Positions 935 to 8,988 of a stretch of 64,000 bases of DNA are shown one piece after another. Both the position numbers and the translations under genes were made by a program. The notes under the pieces are model-generated. The model was not told the origin of the DNA, searched no databases, and saw nothing but the letters and a program-made list of their open reading frames with translations. The DNA lies in the NCBI GenBank assembly GCA_018333865.1, contig JAGXSE010000002.1, positions 1-64,000 of the forward strand, given 5' to 3'. Numbering within the stretch: the stretch's first letter is position 1; the number at the start of each line of letters is the position of its first letter. Source of the stretch: Syntrophomonadaceae bacterium (lineage in GTDB: Bacteria; Bacillota; PH28-bin88).

Positions 935-957
935 CCTCCCTACCGGGAGGTTTTTTT
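935..957 (+). terminator. Rho-independent terminator of ilvN
   Basis: CCTCCC (935-940) pairs with GGGAGG (945-950) around a TACC loop and is followed by seven T residues. It lies eight bases after the ilvN stop. Confidence 0.85.
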
Positions 958-1004: not shown

Positions 1005-1161
1005 AAATAAAGGGTATTTTTGGCATTTGCCGAACTAGCTATGTTAATCTGCCAAAAAATTCCCGCAGGTCTGGCCTTTGCGGCTTTTGCCCCGGCTGTT
1101 TGCGGGTGGCGGCGGGTCAAAGAACACGTTCTATTCGTAGCATTTGGAAGGAGTTATGGTC

Positions 1162-1638
1162 ATGGTTCAAAAGCTCTCTTTTATTTCTTTGATTTTTCAT
1201 GCTATTCCCGAAGGCATTGCTTTAACTGCCCTAGTTTGGTCATTTTTAAAGCTGCCTTTTCAATGGAAAAGTATTGTTTTTATCGGTTTTCTTCATGGAA
1301 TAATAAGTTATTTTGTCAGGCTTTTACCTGTATCGTTTGGCATTCATACTGCTCTATTAATATTTGGATTAACGATATTAATTTGTGTTTGGTCAAAAAC
1401 ATATTTTTCCACAACTCTTTTTCGTGTTGTCTTTGCAGTTTTCATCCTAGCCTTGGGCGAAGTAGTTATAGGCGGAAGCCTATTAGCGATTTTTAATATA
1501 AGTTGGGATGAACTGCAAAATAGCCAATGGATTCGGGTTTTGCTTGGAACTCCTAACACTTTCTTTATCCTGGTAATTGCGCTTTCTTTGAATCAAAAAA
1601 CCAAAGCGATACATACTGAAAGAATAAAAAATATATAA
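1162..1638 (+). CDS. Small polytopic membrane protein of the agr-like locus
   Basis: A protein of 158 aa dominated by hydrophobic segments, about five predicted membrane helices (for example SIVFIGFLHGIISYFV and FRVVFAVFILALGEVVIGG), with a short basic tail. AAGGAG at 1148-1153 is 8 nt from ATG 1162, which makes this start better than the TTG at 1144. I do not recognise a named family. It resembles the membrane sensor half of AgrC-type histidine kinases, but the kinase half is absent. The gene is clearly more AT-rich than its neighbours, which may point to transfer. It ends 20 bp before agrB and is probably co-transcribed with it. Confidence 0.6.
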   Translation: MVQKLSFISLIFHAIPEGIALTALVWSFLKLPFQWKSIVFIGFLHGIISYFVRLLPVSFGIHTALLIFGLTILICVWSKTYFSTTLFRVVFAVFILALGEVVIGGSLLAIFNISWDELQNSQWIRVLLGTPNTFFILVIALSLNQKTKAIHTERIKNI

Positions 1639-1658
1639 ATCGTTGGGAGTTTAATGGG

Positions 1659-2282
1659 ATGCAAGGCTTTTTGGATCATTGTGTTGTTTATTTAACTAAG
1701 GAAGCGAACTTGAAAACTGAACAACAAGAAATCGTTCGTTTCGGTTTGGAATGTACGGCTTCGGCAATATTAAGTACAGGCGTTGCACTTGGGCTTGGTG
1801 GTATACTAGACCAGTTTCCCGAAACCCTGACGGCCTTGCTTATTTTTGCTCTTCTTCGCCGCTTTTCTGGCGGCTCCCATTGCACCGCGCCCGGCAGGTG
1901 CGCGCTTTTCACAGCACTGATACTGGCCTTGATTGCTGGACAAGCCCGCTGGCTTTTCGGGGTAGGATTCCAGCATCACTACCTGGCGATAACAGCCGTA
2001 ACCTTGATGGCCGTGGTGATCCATTGCCGGTGGGCGCCGGCGGACTGCCCGGCCCACCCCATCGCTAAACCGGTGCGGCGCCAGAGATTGAAAAGGTTAT
2101 CCCTGGCAGCGATCGCTGTCCTGGCAAGTTTTCTTTTCCTGATCATATATCTGGGGAACGGCCTTTATGCCGGTGTCGGCTGGATAAGTTTGTTATGGCA
2201 CTCGCTGGGCGTCACGCCCTGGGGAAATAAAGCTGTGGCCGGGGCCGACCAGCTCCTGGCCGCGGCGGGAATAAGGAGGTGA
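1659..2282 (+). CDS. agrB: AgrB-like processing/export membrane endopeptidase
   Basis: A protein of 207 aa with several membrane helices. AgrB proteins cleave the AgrD precursor and help form the cyclic autoinducer. The diagnostic segment RRFSGGSHCTAPGRC contains the catalytic His74 and Cys81, seven residues apart as in AgrB. The later region DCPAHPIAKPVRRQRLKR matches the basic AgrB loop. The stop codon (2280-2282) overlaps the ribosome-binding site of the peptide gene that follows. No AgrC or AgrA lies in the window. A GGDEF/HD-GYP protein follows instead. Confidence 0.88.
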   Translation: MQGFLDHCVVYLTKEANLKTEQQEIVRFGLECTASAILSTGVALGLGGILDQFPETLTALLIFALLRRFSGGSHCTAPGRCALFTALILALIAGQARWLFGVGFQHHYLAITAVTLMAVVIHCRWAPADCPAHPIAKPVRRQRLKRLSLAAIAVLASFLFLIIYLGNGLYAGVGWISLLWHSLGVTPWGNKAVAGADQLLAAAGIRR

Positions 2283-2289
2283 CAAGGTA

Positions 2290-2421
2290 ATGAAAAGATG
2301 GAAAATGGTGCTGCTGGGGAGTCTGGTAACTCTCCTGTCCTGGCTGGCCAGCGCAAATGCAGCTTCAGCATCTACTGTAGTATGGTACCAGCCCGAAGTG
2401 CCCGCAGCGCTGCGCAGGTAA
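2290..2421 (+). CDS. agrD: AgrD-like cyclic lactone autoinducer precursor (serine type)
   Basis: A 43-residue precursor beginning MKRWKMVLLGSLVTLLSW, with AAGGAGG (2273-2279) overlapping the AgrB stop. It has a basic, hydrophobic N-terminal helix of the kind that holds AgrD at the membrane. Next comes the core ASTVVWYQPEVPAALRR, whose YQPEVP-x-x-L tail is the conserved AgrD C-terminus recognised by AgrB. The residue that would close the ring is Ser28, not Cys, so a lactone rather than a thiolactone is predicted. The ring would be Ser-Thr-Val-Val-Trp or one residue longer. Assignment rests on the tail motif and on tight linkage to agrB. Confidence 0.85.
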   Translation: MKRWKMVLLGSLVTLLSWLASANAASASTVVWYQPEVPAALRR

Positions 2422-2430
2422 CAATTTTCC

Positions 2431-2467
2431 GGGGCAAAGGGGAGGGTTTGCTTCCTCTTTGCTCCCC
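2431..2467 (+). other. Hairpin between agrD and the GGDEF/HD-GYP gene
   Basis: GGGGCAAAG (2431-2439) pairs with CTTTGCTCCCC (2457-2467) with one bulge. There is no T-run, so it may be an mRNA processing, stability or attenuation element that separates peptide expression from the downstream gene. Confidence 0.4.
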
Positions 2468-2483
2468 CAAACGAGGAGTTCTG

Positions 2484-4181
2484 ATGAATCAAAAAGAGAA
2501 AAAGCGGCGAGAGAAAATAGCCGAATATGTAGCTGTGACCCACATCAGCGGCTTTCTCATCGGGGCGATGGCCATCATCAAAACACTAAACCTGAACCTG
2601 GATGAAAGCCTGCGTCCGGTATTTCCGGCCGGGCTTCTGGTGGCGCTTTTATTGTACCTGGCAGCAAGAGGCGCATTGGCCTACCTGGCTAAAAACGAGC
2701 GGGTTAAGGGGGTTATTTTGGGGATTCCCGCCGGACTCCACCTGGGGGCAGTTGGCATCCTGGTCGCCGTAGTTACTCTGGTGCTCTGGTTTTCCGGCCA
2801 GGGACAAAGCCAGGTCAAGGTGCTCTACACCATCCCCATTATCCTGGCGGCAGTTAACCACGGTAAGATCCCCGGCCTGGCTGCCGCGGCGGCGGCCAGC
2901 CTGGTGATGATTGCCGTAACCTTGAGCGGCGGGCCGGTTAACCTGGAGCCAGACCTGGTGTTTGCCGGTGTCTTTATCCTGTTGGCCTGGCTGATCGGCG
3001 GCCTGCGGGATGTGGAGAATGAGGCCAGGGAGCATCTGGTCGATATGGTAAATACAGACGATATTACTGGGCTAATTAACCACCGCCATTTTCAAGAGCG
3101 CCTCGATGCCCTGCTTGCCGGCGCCCGCCCCTCGGGTTTTGCATTCACCTTAATTGTTTTTGATATCGACTATTTCAAGCACTATAACAACACCTTCGGC
3201 CACCGGCAGGGCGACCAGGTGCTGGTTGAAATCGGCGGCCTGTTGAAAGAGATGATTCCCGTTCCCGGATTTGCCGCCCGGCTGGGCCATGATGAATTTG
3301 CGGTGGTGCTTCCCGGGATCTCCTTACAGGAAGCTACCGCCTTTAGCGAAAAGCTGCGGGCTCAAATAAATGGCCAGGAGTTCTTTGGCGGGCAGGTGCA
3401 GCCTGGCGGTAGGATTACCGTATCAATTGGCGTGACGGCCTATCCCGATCATGGATCAAACAAGCAGGACCTTGTCCGCGCAGCTTTCGAAGCGCTGGAA
3501 AAAGCAAAGGTTACCAATAAGAACCGCGTGGAAGTATATTTTTCCGTTTTCGAGGACTTGAAAAAGAGCATGAATGAATCCGAGCGGGATCTCCTGAGCT
3601 CGGTCCGGACCCTGCTTGGGGTCATCAATGCCAAGGACAAATATACCTACGGCCACTCCGAACGGGTGGTCCAGCTTTGCCGTCTGTTGGCCCGCCGGGC
3701 GGGAATGAATGAAAAAGAAGAACGAATGCTAGCCTATGCCGCTTTTTTGCACGACATCGGCAAGATCGAGGTTCCCCGGGAAGTGCTTAATAAAGTGGAA
3801 CCTCTTTTGCCGGAAGAATGGGAAACGCTGAAAATGCACCCTCTTTGGGGAATTGACATCATCAGGCCGGCTGTTTCTTTGCAGGAAGCCATTCCCGTTA
3901 TTAAACACCATCATGAGAATTATAACGGCACCGGTTACCCGGAAGGCATATCCGGCAAGGATATTCCTTATGGGGCAAGGGTTTTGCGGATCATCGATTC
4001 CTTCGACGCGATGACCACCCATCGTCCATACCGCCGGGGGATCAGCCTGCCGGAGGCACTTCAGGAGTTGGCAAAAGGTTCCGGCAGCCTTTATGACCCA
4101 GAGCTGGTAAAAGGGTTCGTTATCTGCATGGAAGAGTTAAAGGAGAGCCGGGAAATAAGTTCAAAACGGCTAAACATATAA
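2484..4181 (+). CDS. Membrane GGDEF plus HD-GYP c-di-GMP turnover protein
   Basis: A protein of 565 aa. Residues 20-175 hold five or six membrane helices. Residues about 190-340 form a GGDEF domain whose active-site motif reads GHDEF (268-272), with His at the second Gly, and there is no RxxD inhibitory site. Residues about 365-545 form an HD-GYP phosphodiesterase with HDIGK and the GTGYP motif, so c-di-GMP hydrolysis is likely while cyclase activity is doubtful. The GGDEF domain may instead sense GTP. ATG 2484 follows GAGGAG; a longer frame upstream overlaps agrD and is unlikely to be translated. Its place directly after agrBD suggests a link between peptide signalling and c-di-GMP (inference). 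Confidence 0.85.
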   Translation: MNQKEKKRREKIAEYVAVTHISGFLIGAMAIIKTLNLNLDESLRPVFPAGLLVALLLYLAARGALAYLAKNERVKGVILGIPAGLHLGAVGILVAVVTLVLWFSGQGQSQVKVLYTIPIILAAVNHGKIPGLAAAAAASLVMIAVTLSGGPVNLEPDLVFAGVFILLAWLIGGLRDVENEAREHLVDMVNTDDITGLINHRHFQERLDALLAGARPSGFAFTLIVFDIDYFKHYNNTFGHRQGDQVLVEIGGLLKEMIPVPGFAARLGHDEFAVVLPGISLQEATAFSEKLRAQINGQEFFGGQVQPGGRITVSIGVTAYPDHGSNKQDLVRAAFEALEKAKVTNKNRVEVYFSVFEDLKKSMNESERDLLSSVRTLLGVINAKDKYTYGHSERVVQLCRLLARRAGMNEKEERMLAYAAFLHDIGKIEVPREVLNKVEPLLPEEWETLKMHPLWGIDIIRPAVSLQEAIPVIKHHHENYNGTGYPEGISGKDIPYGARVLRIIDSFDAMTTHRPYRRGISLPEALQELAKGSGSLYDPELVKGFVICMEELKESREISSKRLNI

Positions 4182-5563: not shown

Positions 5564-7279
5564 ATGAAAAAGTTATACCAACTGTTTGATTTCAGACACT
5601 GGAGCATCCGCTACAAGCTTCTGGCCTCTTTCTTGATAATTATTCTGGTATTTGCCGCTGCAGTCTTGATATCTTATCTGCAAATTGCCGCAATTTTCGG
5701 CAAAGTGAAAGAAATGGAGCAGGCTAATGCGAGCCTGATCAAGGTGCATAAGATTAATGATGCGGGCCGGGACCTTTATATCCATGTGGCAGATATAATT
5801 ATCGGTGGTACGGAAGCTGATATTGATAAATACAATCAAACGAGCCGCCAGCTGAACGAATTGACTGCAGAACTGAAGACAGACCTCGCCAATACCCGGG
5901 AAGTGCAGTTATTAGAGGCGATTGCCAAGCAGCAGATCCGGATGGAAAGCGGCTTTAAAGGAGTGGTTGCCGCTTGGCGGCTGAGGGACCAGGAGGGCAT
6001 GCGCCGCTGGAATATTGAAATGACAACCGTGAGAAACAATATTATCAATTTGACAAGCCAGCTGACGCAAGAAATCCAGGCCATCCAGGCTAATGCTGCC
6101 AGAGATTTGCAGCGGCATCTGGATCATATCGTACAGCAGATGATGATAGCCATTCTTGCCGCGCTGGTGCTGGCTATCGCAACCGCTTTGGTGAGCGGCC
6201 ATTTCATGCGGACACCTGTGGCAAAACTGGCGGCCTACAGCCGTCAAATTGCTGCCGGCAACCTGATTGGCGAACCCCTCTACCATAAGGACAAAGATGA
6301 AATCGGCCAGCTGGTGCAGGCCTTCAATGAGATGCGCAATTCCTTGCGGGGGTTGATTCACTCTGGCATCGAGACCTCCCAGCAGGTAGCGGCTGCCAGC
6401 CAGGAATTGGCTGCATCTGCCGGGCAGATGGAGGAGGCCGCAGGCCAGGTGGCCGAAAGTGTGCAGGAAATTGCCCGGGGTGCGCAGGAACAGGCTGTCA
6501 ACGCCCAGTCGGTGGCCCAGGCGACGGAAAGACTGCTGCAAAAAGTAAGGGCCGTCCATGCCGGCTCAGAGGAGATGAATGCCGGAGCAGACACCGTATA
6601 TAAAGTTACTGTAGCCGGGAATGAGACGATCCGCGCCGCAGAAACCCAGATGAGTGCGATCAGCAATCAGGTGAGCTCGATCTCGGTCTTAGTTGAAAAC
6701 CTGGGACGCCGGACCAGGGATGTGGAAGAAATTGTCGAGCTGATCACCGGTGTTGCAGACCAGACCAATCTCTTGGCGTTAAATGCAGCCATCGAGGCGG
6801 CCAGGGCCGGCGAGCACGGGCGGGGATTTGCCGTAGTGGCCGAGGAAGTGCGCAAACTGGCTGAGCAATCAGCCCAGGCTGCTGGCCGGATTATTGACAC
6901 CATTAAGGAAATCCGGATCGAGACCGCTAAGGCGATGCAGGCCATGCAGGAGGGCACTAAAGAAGTAGAACAGGGGAGTGAACTGCTCAGGAAAACCAGC
7001 GGCGCTTTTGCCCAGATTCGCGAAAGTATGGGGCATTTAGGTGAAGGCGCCCAAAAATTAGTCGGTCTGGCCAGAGAAATGGAGTTAACCAGCCACGAAG
7101 TTGGCGGCCAGGTGCAAAACATAGCGGCTGTGACAGAAGAAGCCACGGCAGGCACCGAGGAAGTTTCCGCCGCAGTGGAAGAGCAGCGGCAGCTGGTGAA
7201 AGAAATAGCGGCTTCAGCGGCAAAGCTGTCTGAAATGGCCGAAGAAACAGTCAGGGTTTCTGGCAAATTTCAGATTTAA
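5564..7279 (+). CDS. Methyl-accepting chemotaxis protein
   Basis: A protein of 571 aa. A first membrane helix (about 20-42) is followed by a four-helix-bundle sensor of roughly 145 residues and a second helix ([18 protein letters not shown]). A HAMP domain starts at [20 protein letters not shown], and a cytoplasmic signalling domain carries the hairpin-tip sequence [19 protein letters not shown]. It signals through CheA/CheW to flagellar motors. There is no C-terminal CheR-binding pentapeptide. ATG 5564 follows GGGGGGCGAG. No other chemotaxis genes are adjacent, so it is a stand-alone receptor whose ligand is unknown. Confidence 0.93.
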
Positions 7280-7350: not shown

Positions 7351-7503
7351 ATGTCCGGAAAGATTGTACATATCAAGACCATCGTCAAACCCGATTTAAA
7401 AACTACCCTGGCTACAGGGGGCTGCGGTTCTTGCCAGACGTCTTGCCAGTCAGCGTGTAAAACCTCCTGTACTGTGGGCAACCAGGTTTGCGAAAAGAAA
7501 TAA
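7351..7503 (+). CDS. scfA: SCIFF peptide (six cysteines in forty-five), RiPP precursor
   Basis: A 50-residue peptide beginning MSGKIVHIKTIVKPDLKTTL. Its six cysteines are at 25, 28, 32, 36, 40 and 47. This matches the SCIFF family, a ribosomal peptide nearly universal in Clostridia. The adjacent radical-SAM enzyme installs a thioether crosslink. GGGGAAGG precedes the ATG, and TATAAT at about 7309 is a likely -10 box. It lies 78 bp before the maturase start. Confidence 0.95.
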   Translation: MSGKIVHIKTIVKPDLKTTLATGGCGSCQTSCQSACKTSCTVGNQVCEKK

Positions 7504-7581
7504 TAAGCCAAAGCCGGGAGCGGCCTGCACATGGGGCAGGCCGTTTCAGCTCTTGTGATCAAGATGCAAGGAGGTAGTGGG

Positions 7582-8988
7582 TTGGATCAGGGCCATCTGG
7601 TCTGGCAGCCGGGAGACCTGCACCGGTTTCGCCAGGGAGGTTTGAATATTGTCTTGGATGTTAATAGCGGCTCAATTCACTTGGTGGACGAAATAGCCTG
7701 GGAGTTCCTGGGGGCTTTGGAAAAAGAGGCGGGGAACATGGAACTGGCCAGCCGGGCTCTGGGGAAGGACTATTCCCCTGCGGAGATTAGCCATGTCGTA
7801 GCTGAGCTTTTGCAGCTAAAAAGTGAGGGGACCCTTTTTAGCCAGGATGACCTGGCCGCGCACAGCCTTCCAGCAGCATCTGAAACTCAAGTAATCAAGG
7901 CTTTATGCCTGCATGTGGCCCACGACTGCAACCTGAGATGCCGCTACTGTTTTGCGGGTACGGGGCCCTTCGGCCACGACCGGTCGCTGATGTCTTTTGA
8001 GACCGGCCGGGCTGCGATTGACCTTTTGCTGCAGGCTTCAGGGCAGCGCCCAACCTGTGAAATTGATTTTTTTGGGGGAGAACCTCTGCTGAATTTTACG
8101 GTAGTTCGCCGGTTAGTGGCTTATGGCAAAAAAGAGGCTGCCAGGCTGGGGAAGACCATCCGGTTCACCCTGACAACCAACGGGCTCTTATTAAACAATG
8201 AGACGAATGAGTTCCTCAATCAGGAGGGGATGCAGGTTGTCTTGAGCCTGGACGGGCGGCCGGAAGTTCATGACAGGCACCGGCCATTCCCCGGCGGTCA
8301 GGGCAGTTACAAGCCTGCTCTGGCAAAGATCAGGGATTTCGTCGCTTTAAGGCCAGGGGGAAATTATTACATCCGGGGGACCTTCTCTGCCCATAATCCG
8401 GATTTTAGCAGGGATGTCCTTCATTTGGCCGGCCTTGGTTTCAACCGCATCTCGGTTGAGCCGGTAGTTGCCGGGCCAAAAGAAGATTACGCCCTCGACC
8501 GGGTCGAACCGGCAGTCCTGGAAAAAGAATATGAGGTGCTGGCCGAGGTCTGCCTGGAAAGAAAAAGGCAGGGGCACCCTATCAATTTCTTTCACTTTAA
8601 CCTGGAACTCCTGAAAGCTCCCTGCCTGCCCCGCCGCCTGGCCGGCTGCGGCGCAGGCAACGAATACCTGGCGGTTACTCCCGCAGGCAGTCTTTATCCC
8701 TGCCACCAGTTTGTCGGACAGGAAAAATTTTTGCTGGGGGATGTCGGGCGGGGGGTTACTAATATCTCTTTGCGTAACCACTTTCAAGAGCTTAACGTAT
8801 ATACCCGCCGGGACTGCCGGTCCTGCTGGGCTCGCTTCTATTGCGGCGGGGGGTGTCATGCCAACAATTTCAGCCACGGGGGCGGCCTGGAGGAAATCTA
8901 TCTCCTGGGTTGCCGCCTGCAAAAAAAGCGTTTGGAGTGCGCCATTTACCTTCAAGCACAAGAGCTGGCCGGGGAGCCTGTTATCTAA
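7582..8988 (+). CDS. scfB: SCIFF maturase, radical SAM/SPASM thioether-forming enzyme
   Basis: A protein of 468 aa from TTG 7582, chosen because AAGGAGGT (7568-7575) is six bases upstream; the frame is open further left. An N-terminal RRE-like peptide-binding region (residues 1-95) precedes the radical SAM motif Cys116-x3-Cys120-x2-Cys123 (CNLRCRYC). The C-terminal SPASM region carries many cysteines (for example GCGAGNEYLAVTPAGSLYPC and CRSCWARFYCGGGCHANN) that bind auxiliary 4Fe-4S clusters. It acts on the peptide encoded immediately upstream. Confidence 0.95.
   Translation: MDQGHLVWQPGDLHRFRQGGLNIVLDVNSGSIHLVDEIAWEFLGALEKEAGNMELASRALGKDYSPAEISHVVAELLQLKSEGTLFSQDDLAAHSLPAASETQVIKALCLHVAHDCNLRCRYCFAGTGPFGHDRSLMSFETGRAAIDLLLQASGQRPTCEIDFFGGEPLLNFTVVRRLVAYGKKEAARLGKTIRFTLTTNGLLLNNETNEFLNQEGMQVVLSLDGRPEVHDRHRPFPGGQGSYKPALAKIRDFVALRPGGNYYIRGTFSAHNPDFSRDVLHLAGLGFNRISVEPVVAGPKEDYALDRVEPAVLEKEYEVLAEVCLERKRQGHPINFFHFNLELLKAPCLPRRLAGCGAGNEYLAVTPAGSLYPCHQFVGQEKFLLGDVGRGVTNISLRNHFQELNVYTRRDCRSCWARFYCGGGCHANNFSHGGGLEEIYLLGCRLQKKRLECAIYLQAQELAGEPVI

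Follow-up and report, generated by a model that had tools for sequence, protein, structure and literature searches.

The first 64,000 nucleotides of contig JAGXSE010000002.1 from a Syntrophomonadaceae bacterium (assembly GCA_018333865.1; hereafter the window) carry four genes on the plus strand at positions 1156-4181: an open reading frame for a membrane protein (ORF1), the accessory gene regulator (Agr) genes agrB and agrD, and a gene for a membrane-anchored GGDEF/HD-GYP protein of cyclic di-GMP (c-di-GMP) turnover. Our analysis suggests that this locus probably encodes a peptide quorum system of the Agr type whose receptor is split between ORF1 and the transmembrane (TM) domain of the enzyme and whose output is c-di-GMP. 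It would represent a widespread and apparently undescribed form of Agr in anaerobic spore-formers, in which a detached receptor half and a membrane-bound enzyme predicted to break down c-di-GMP take the place of AgrC and AgrA. Judged by sequence, the locus is Agr in its AgrB and AgrD and is not Agr as far as AgrC and AgrA are concerned.

The assignment of the peptide genes is clear. AgrB matches PF04647 (E 6.5e-36; 123.9 bits, cut-off 23), and its catalytic pair, H74 and C81, is invariant across the alignment; AgrD, a precursor of 43 amino acids, matches the NCBIfam model TIGR04223 with 38.7 bits (cut-off 19). Both had been recognized in the original prediction, as had the presence of a serine where the ring cysteine is expected: Ser28 aligns exactly with the ring cysteine of relatives, including the genome G002 of the same family (...AASAC-NAIW-YQPELP in G002 versus ...AASAS-TVVW-YQPEVP in the window). 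The predicted product is a five-residue lactone ring, Ser28-Thr-Val-Val-Trp32, followed by YQPEVP, and lactone chemistry is known from other Agr peptides. The idea that the serine is a hallmark of the system, or that it defines a distinct lactone class, had to be given up: the ring residue is cysteine in 82 and serine in only 3 of the 85 AgrD proteins linked to HD-GYP enzymes (the window, L065 and L143), the nearest relative, L062, has a cysteine, and the loci with TM-domain histidine kinases have 25 cysteines and one serine. By this comparison, the serine is a sporadic, rare and incidental substitution. The AgrB tree, which needs 10 changes, did not recover the AgrB proteins linked to HD-GYP enzymes as a monophyletic group.

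That a c-di-GMP turnover protein adjoins the agr genes holds for its domains (GGDEF, PF00990, 1.7e-37; HD_5, PF13487, 2e-40) and for its HD-GYP half, in which the HDIGK and HHENYNGTGYP motifs are intact, but it had been overlooked that the GGDEF signature of the window protein is degenerate and reads GHDEF, which departs from the GG(D/E)EF active-site signature. This motif makes it likely that the GGDEF half lacks cyclase activity, and synthesis of c-di-GMP by this half in this organism is doubtful; the HD-GYP half is thus the likely output. In the family, HD and GYP are both kept in 91 of 91 members, and the second glycine of GGDEF is replaced in 13 of the 87 readable ones (GSDEF, GNDEF, ANDEF, GHDEF), with most of them keeping GGDEF or GGEEF. 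Since the former motifs are universal and the latter is sometimes lost, hydrolysis is the conserved chemistry and the cyclase is optional. The AlphaFold model of the enzyme has a predicted local distance difference test score (pLDDT) of 86. Translation probably starts at the ATG at 2484, where the alignment of the family begins, rather than at the in-frame ATG at 2298, from which the frame would overlap agrD. With nine HD_5 matches in the whole genome, the probability of a chance adjacency to agrD is well under 1%. Two HD-GYP genes, at L063:5302-7019 and in L178, are broken into two frames (512 + 61 and 456 + 114 amino acids), which reflects recent frameshifts or assembly errors. In Moorella mulderi and Moorella stamsii (L217, L212), ORF1 is preceded by the gene for a long GGDEF protein (about 800 amino acids); this protein could be a diguanylate cyclase opposite the phosphodiesterase.

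The linkage is conserved in relatives, and a lack of conservation would have spoken against the original prediction. When 399 genomes of the phylum were scanned with a profile built from just the N-terminal TM domain, 88 genomes contained this domain, and in at least 40 of these AgrB is encoded upstream of the TM protein on the same strand. In nearly all linked loci of this draw, 225-433 nt separate AgrB from the TM protein, which leaves room for one agrD. Among 84 distinct contig-interior loci encoding a TM-GGDEF-HD-GYP protein, ORF1 is present in 80, AgrB in 78 and both in 75; as other loci were partly fetched for AgrB or ORF1, the fair subset consists of the loci fetched for their TM match (L131-L190), with ORF1 in 31 and AgrB in 29 of 33. 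The order ORF1-agrB-agrD-TM-GGDEF-HD-GYP recurs in Moorella, Desulfofundulus, Sporotomaculum, Clostridium, Tepidibacter and others, and the named bearers of the HD-GYP form include M. mulderi, M. stamsii, Desulfofundulus thermosubterraneus, D. australicus, Desulfotomaculum copahuensis, Sporotomaculum syntrophicum, Tepidibacter formicigenes, Clostridium tunisiense, C. ganghwense, C. yunnanense, C. punense, C. mobile and C. caldaquaticum. Of 208 Clostridiaceae genomes, 117 have the TM domain and 114 have ORF1, with 112 having both by a comparison of the two lists, and the linkage of agr to HD-GYP is present at most of the Clostridiaceae loci examined. Many Clostridium HD-GYP loci encode, directly upstream of ORF1, a membrane protein of about 185 amino acids that is absent from the window: The examples L318:2757-3320 and L307:5837-6385 belong to DUF5317 (PF17248), and similar sequences are found in about 17 other Clostridium loci. 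It could contribute to the receptor as an additional component or take part in peptide export.

ORF1 had been noted as a polytopic membrane protein without a kinase and as a possible receptor. Indeed, no Pfam or NCBIfam family and no kinase domain were found in it, and its AlphaFold model, a helical membrane structure, is of high confidence (pLDDT 94.3, predicted TM-score 0.88). The suggestion that it is a receptor gains support from its homologues, which occur in three forms: as a separate gene beside a TM protein, as a separate gene beside a SPOB_a/HATPase kinase of about 285 amino acids, in some cases together with a LytTR regulator (e.g. L070, L071, L078), and as an N-terminal fusion to a SPOB_a/HATPase kinase (L073, L074, L091, L099, and L095 by profile). 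Residues 23-420 of the fused L073 protein match positions 12-395 of the Staphylococcus AgrC model (5e-18) and thus cover the length of AgrC, whereas the split kinase of L070 matches only positions 139-402. ORF1 thus appears to take the position that the N-terminal half has in AgrC, and we infer that it is the detached sensor half of AgrC and a candidate peptide-binding subunit of the receptor. Two or three tandem copies of ORF1 precede a single agrB in L243:3382-4940, L302, L334, L064 and L148, as if several receptor halves of differing specificity were stocked.

The TM domain of the enzyme behaves like a module. Among the distinct proteins with this domain, 97 have GGDEF-HD-GYP and 52 a HisKA kinase attached to it, and the tree of the domain requires 18 changes of output, at least seven of which are forced by well-supported branches; in a further variant, the output is HisKA plus a receiver and the ORF1/TM part is retained. 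Such a pattern would be expected of a sensor made up of ORF1 and the TM domain, with the C-terminal domain as an exchangeable output. The TM domain of the window protein shows a weak resemblance in Pfam to DUF4118, 6TM_PilS and MASE1, under every curated cut-off. Sensor domains of the MASE/DUF4118 type are likewise polytopic, N-terminal and common to GGDEF, HD-GYP and histidine kinase proteins, but the TM domain differs from them by its linkage to ORF1 and agrBD. The constancy of the TM domain beside AgrB while HD-GYP and HisKA outputs are swapped would also be compatible with the TM domain being the complete receptor and ORF1 an accessory, with a role in peptide export, as partner of AgrB or in immunity, and ORF1 is indeed absent from 6 of 39 contig-interior loci with TM-HisKA kinases. 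We regard this as unlikely, as ORF1 is related to an AgrC-like sensor half and is fused to or located beside AgrC-type kinases where there is no TM protein. Moreover, ORF1 remains with TM proteins after AgrB and AgrD are gone (L169, L177, L184, L305, L329): it accompanies them even without AgrB and thus belongs with the sensor and not with peptide processing. The TM proteins of these five loci are HisKA kinases, and the pairs could be eavesdroppers on the peptides of other cells.

In the circuit that we propose, AgrB would cut and cyclise AgrD, to a lactone here and usually to a thiolactone in relatives, and the cyclic peptide would be exported. Within the membrane, ORF1 and the TM domain of the enzyme would jointly bind the peptide, and the bound receptor would alter the activity of the HD-GYP phosphodiesterase and thereby the local or global level of c-di-GMP, a change that would take the place of the phosphorylation of an AgrA. 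The binding of the peptide by ORF1, the contact of ORF1 with the TM domain, the direction in which hydrolysis would change, the action of the peptide through c-di-GMP and the behaviour downstream are all inferred. It is tempting to generalize this idea: ORF1 proteins may be plug-in peptide-binding subunits detached from AgrC that act in two-protein receptors with interchangeable partners, i. e. SPOB-type kinases with LytTR regulators, orphan HisKA kinases that perhaps feed Spo0A, and HD-GYP enzymes, and this could be the general answer for orphan clostridial agrBD peptides, with the cyclic peptide of the HD-GYP class controlling c-di-GMP directly and without phosphotransfer. On this wider proposal, our opinion is evenly balanced.

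Several observations weigh against the receptor and circuit outlined above. A structural search with the predicted fold of ORF1 against the PDB gave no match. ORF1 sequences on their own match the AgrC model NF046015 weakly (6 of 97 members, best E 0.0014; no match for ORF1 of the window), so the bridge between ORF1 and AgrC rests on the fused proteins; the AgrC model is the most frequent family among the matches of ORF1 members alone. The hairpin between agrD and the enzyme gene, discussed below, is conserved, and therefore a single operon cannot be assumed and the enzyme may be expressed separately. Finally, the genome of the window does encode a LytTR protein, a response regulator (L205:3935-4684), and for C. 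perfringens it has been proposed that VirS, an unlinked sensor, detects the agr peptide (PMC4963840).

The latter two facts would be in line with an unlinked kinase that senses the peptide, and with the HD-GYP protein as a mere co-located target or passenger. The LytTR regulator is the only one of the genome, and neither a kinase nor an agr gene lies beside it. However, a cognate agrCA pair elsewhere, which would have contradicted the original prediction of a GGDEF/HD-GYP neighbour instead of AgrC and AgrA, was not found in the genome (3.2 Mb, 100% complete by computed estimate). It encodes one AgrB, one ORF1-type domain, which is the one at the locus, and one copy of the TM domain, and searches with SPOB_a, HATPase_c_5 and the ORF1-type domain detected no AgrC-type kinase: the sole SPOB_a protein is Spo0B, encoded next to obg, and the sole HATPase_c_5 match is a PAS-HisKA kinase. 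Nor is there an AgrA-type LytTR regulator within the agr locus of the window. The linkage is kept over many families with near-constant spacing, and a LytTR gene is found within 2.5 kb at none of the 149 TM loci, as compared to 10 of 32 loci with AgrC-type kinases. An unlinked kinase as the sensor is thus distinctly unlikely. A reverse flow, in which c-di-GMP turnover or the membrane domain controls the activity or export of AgrBD, is very improbable: gene order gives no direction and the hairpin may set the enzyme low relative to AgrD, but the outputs vary between HD-GYP, HisKA and HisKA plus receiver while ORF1 and the TM domain are kept, as for a sensor that feeds different outputs.

The features of the locus are listed in the table below. 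ORF1 starts with the ATG at 1156 or 1162. The gap that separates the agrD stop codon from the start of the enzyme gene has a median length of 74 nt in the family and folds with z < -2 in 93 of 108 loci of relatives, as compared to 15% of 130 co-directional and 82% of 33 convergent control gaps (z scores from mononucleotide shuffles). The hairpin stems have a median of 13 pairs, and a T-rich tail follows in 35 of 111. The hairpin is conserved in position and not in sequence, and we propose that it may serve as an attenuator, a partial terminator or a processing site that would make the enzyme scarcer than the peptide. For the terminator-like hairpin behind ilvN, the position is the main argument, since shuffles yield similar numbers of such sites. 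A search with Rfam found no known RNA families in the window.

Features of the agr locus in the window
Feature	Position	Strand	Evidence
Terminator-like hairpin after ilvN; divides the locus from the upstream gene	935..957	+	Stem 935-950, then seven T
ORF1, polytopic membrane protein, about 160 amino acids; proposed receptor subunit	1156..1638	+	Neighbours in relatives; kinase fusions elsewhere; AlphaFold
AgrB, cysteine endopeptidase predicted to process and cyclise AgrD	1659..2282	+	PF04647; His/Cys pair
AgrD, peptide precursor, 43 amino acids	2290..2421	+	TIGR04223; alignment with Cys-ring relatives
Hairpin of 15 bp between agrD and the enzyme gene	2431..2465	+	-26.8 kcal/mol, z -4.2
TM-GGDEF-HD-GYP protein, 565 amino acids; membrane domain about residues 1-184	2484..4181	+	PF00990, PF13487

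Just downstream of the locus, at 5564-7279, the window encodes a methyl-accepting chemotaxis protein (HAMP and MCPsignal domains), which was not observed within the conserved cassette and is a potential neighbour, on the behavioural side, of a c-di-GMP circuit. At 7351-8988, 3 kb downstream of the agr locus, there is a SCIFF ranthipeptide precursor (TIGR03973, 78.7 bits) with its radical SAM maturase (TIGR03974); ranthipeptides of clostridia were proposed earlier as quorum signals.

Agr genes without linked agrCA, as in the window, are also present in the agr operon of C. perfringens, in agr-1 and agr-2 of C. botulinum and in agr1 of C. difficile. In C. perfringens, agrBD shares a transcript with two hypothetical genes upstream of it, and an agrB mutant was complemented only by a construct that also carried these two genes (PMC2706048). 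In our Clostridium loci, DUF5317 and ORF1 occupy the two places upstream of agrBD, which is suggestive of their being the counterparts of these genes, and CPE1562 and CPE1563 of C. perfringens may thus be homologues of ORF1 or DUF5317; a published primer sequence for the C. perfringens agr locus was unmatched in the 208 Clostridiaceae genomes. The kinases CBO0336 and CBO0340, which we take to adjoin the agr loci of C. botulinum, resemble the TM-HisKA kinases in size and layout. They are orphan 5TM-PAS-HisKA kinases of 615 and 617 amino acids (PMC11210211). In C. difficile, agrA alters the expression of EAL and GGDEF genes (PMC3754575), an effect that is transcriptional, unlike the linkage in the window.

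In our literature search, the coverage of which was incomplete so that the novelty is provisional, there was no description of agr linked to an HD-GYP protein encoded at the locus. Many clostridial Agr peptides are without a known receptor, and the locus type described here names two adjacent candidate proteins. If our proposal is true, there would be a direct route without phosphorelay from a ring peptide to c-di-GMP, and population density would be linked to the choice between motile and sessile life or to sporulation in Gram-positive anaerobes. Culturable hosts exist among the named bearers, for example in Moorella, Desulfofundulus and several species of Clostridium.

The control of an HD-GYP phosphodiesterase by a quorum signal, as proposed here, is known from RpfC/RpfG in the diffusible signal factor signalling of Xanthomonas. 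In that system, the signal is a fatty acid that acts via a phosphorelay to a soluble receiver-HD-GYP protein, and the sensing parts are not homologous to those of the window. The peptide part, in turn, is that of the S. aureus AgrBDCA system: both have proteins of the AgrB and AgrD families and a ring peptide followed by a PEVP-like tail, and the N-terminal half of S. aureus AgrC appears to correspond to ORF1. The window differs from the S. aureus system in its ring serine and in the lack of AgrC and AgrA, with the receptor half being a separate protein and the output an HD-GYP enzyme.

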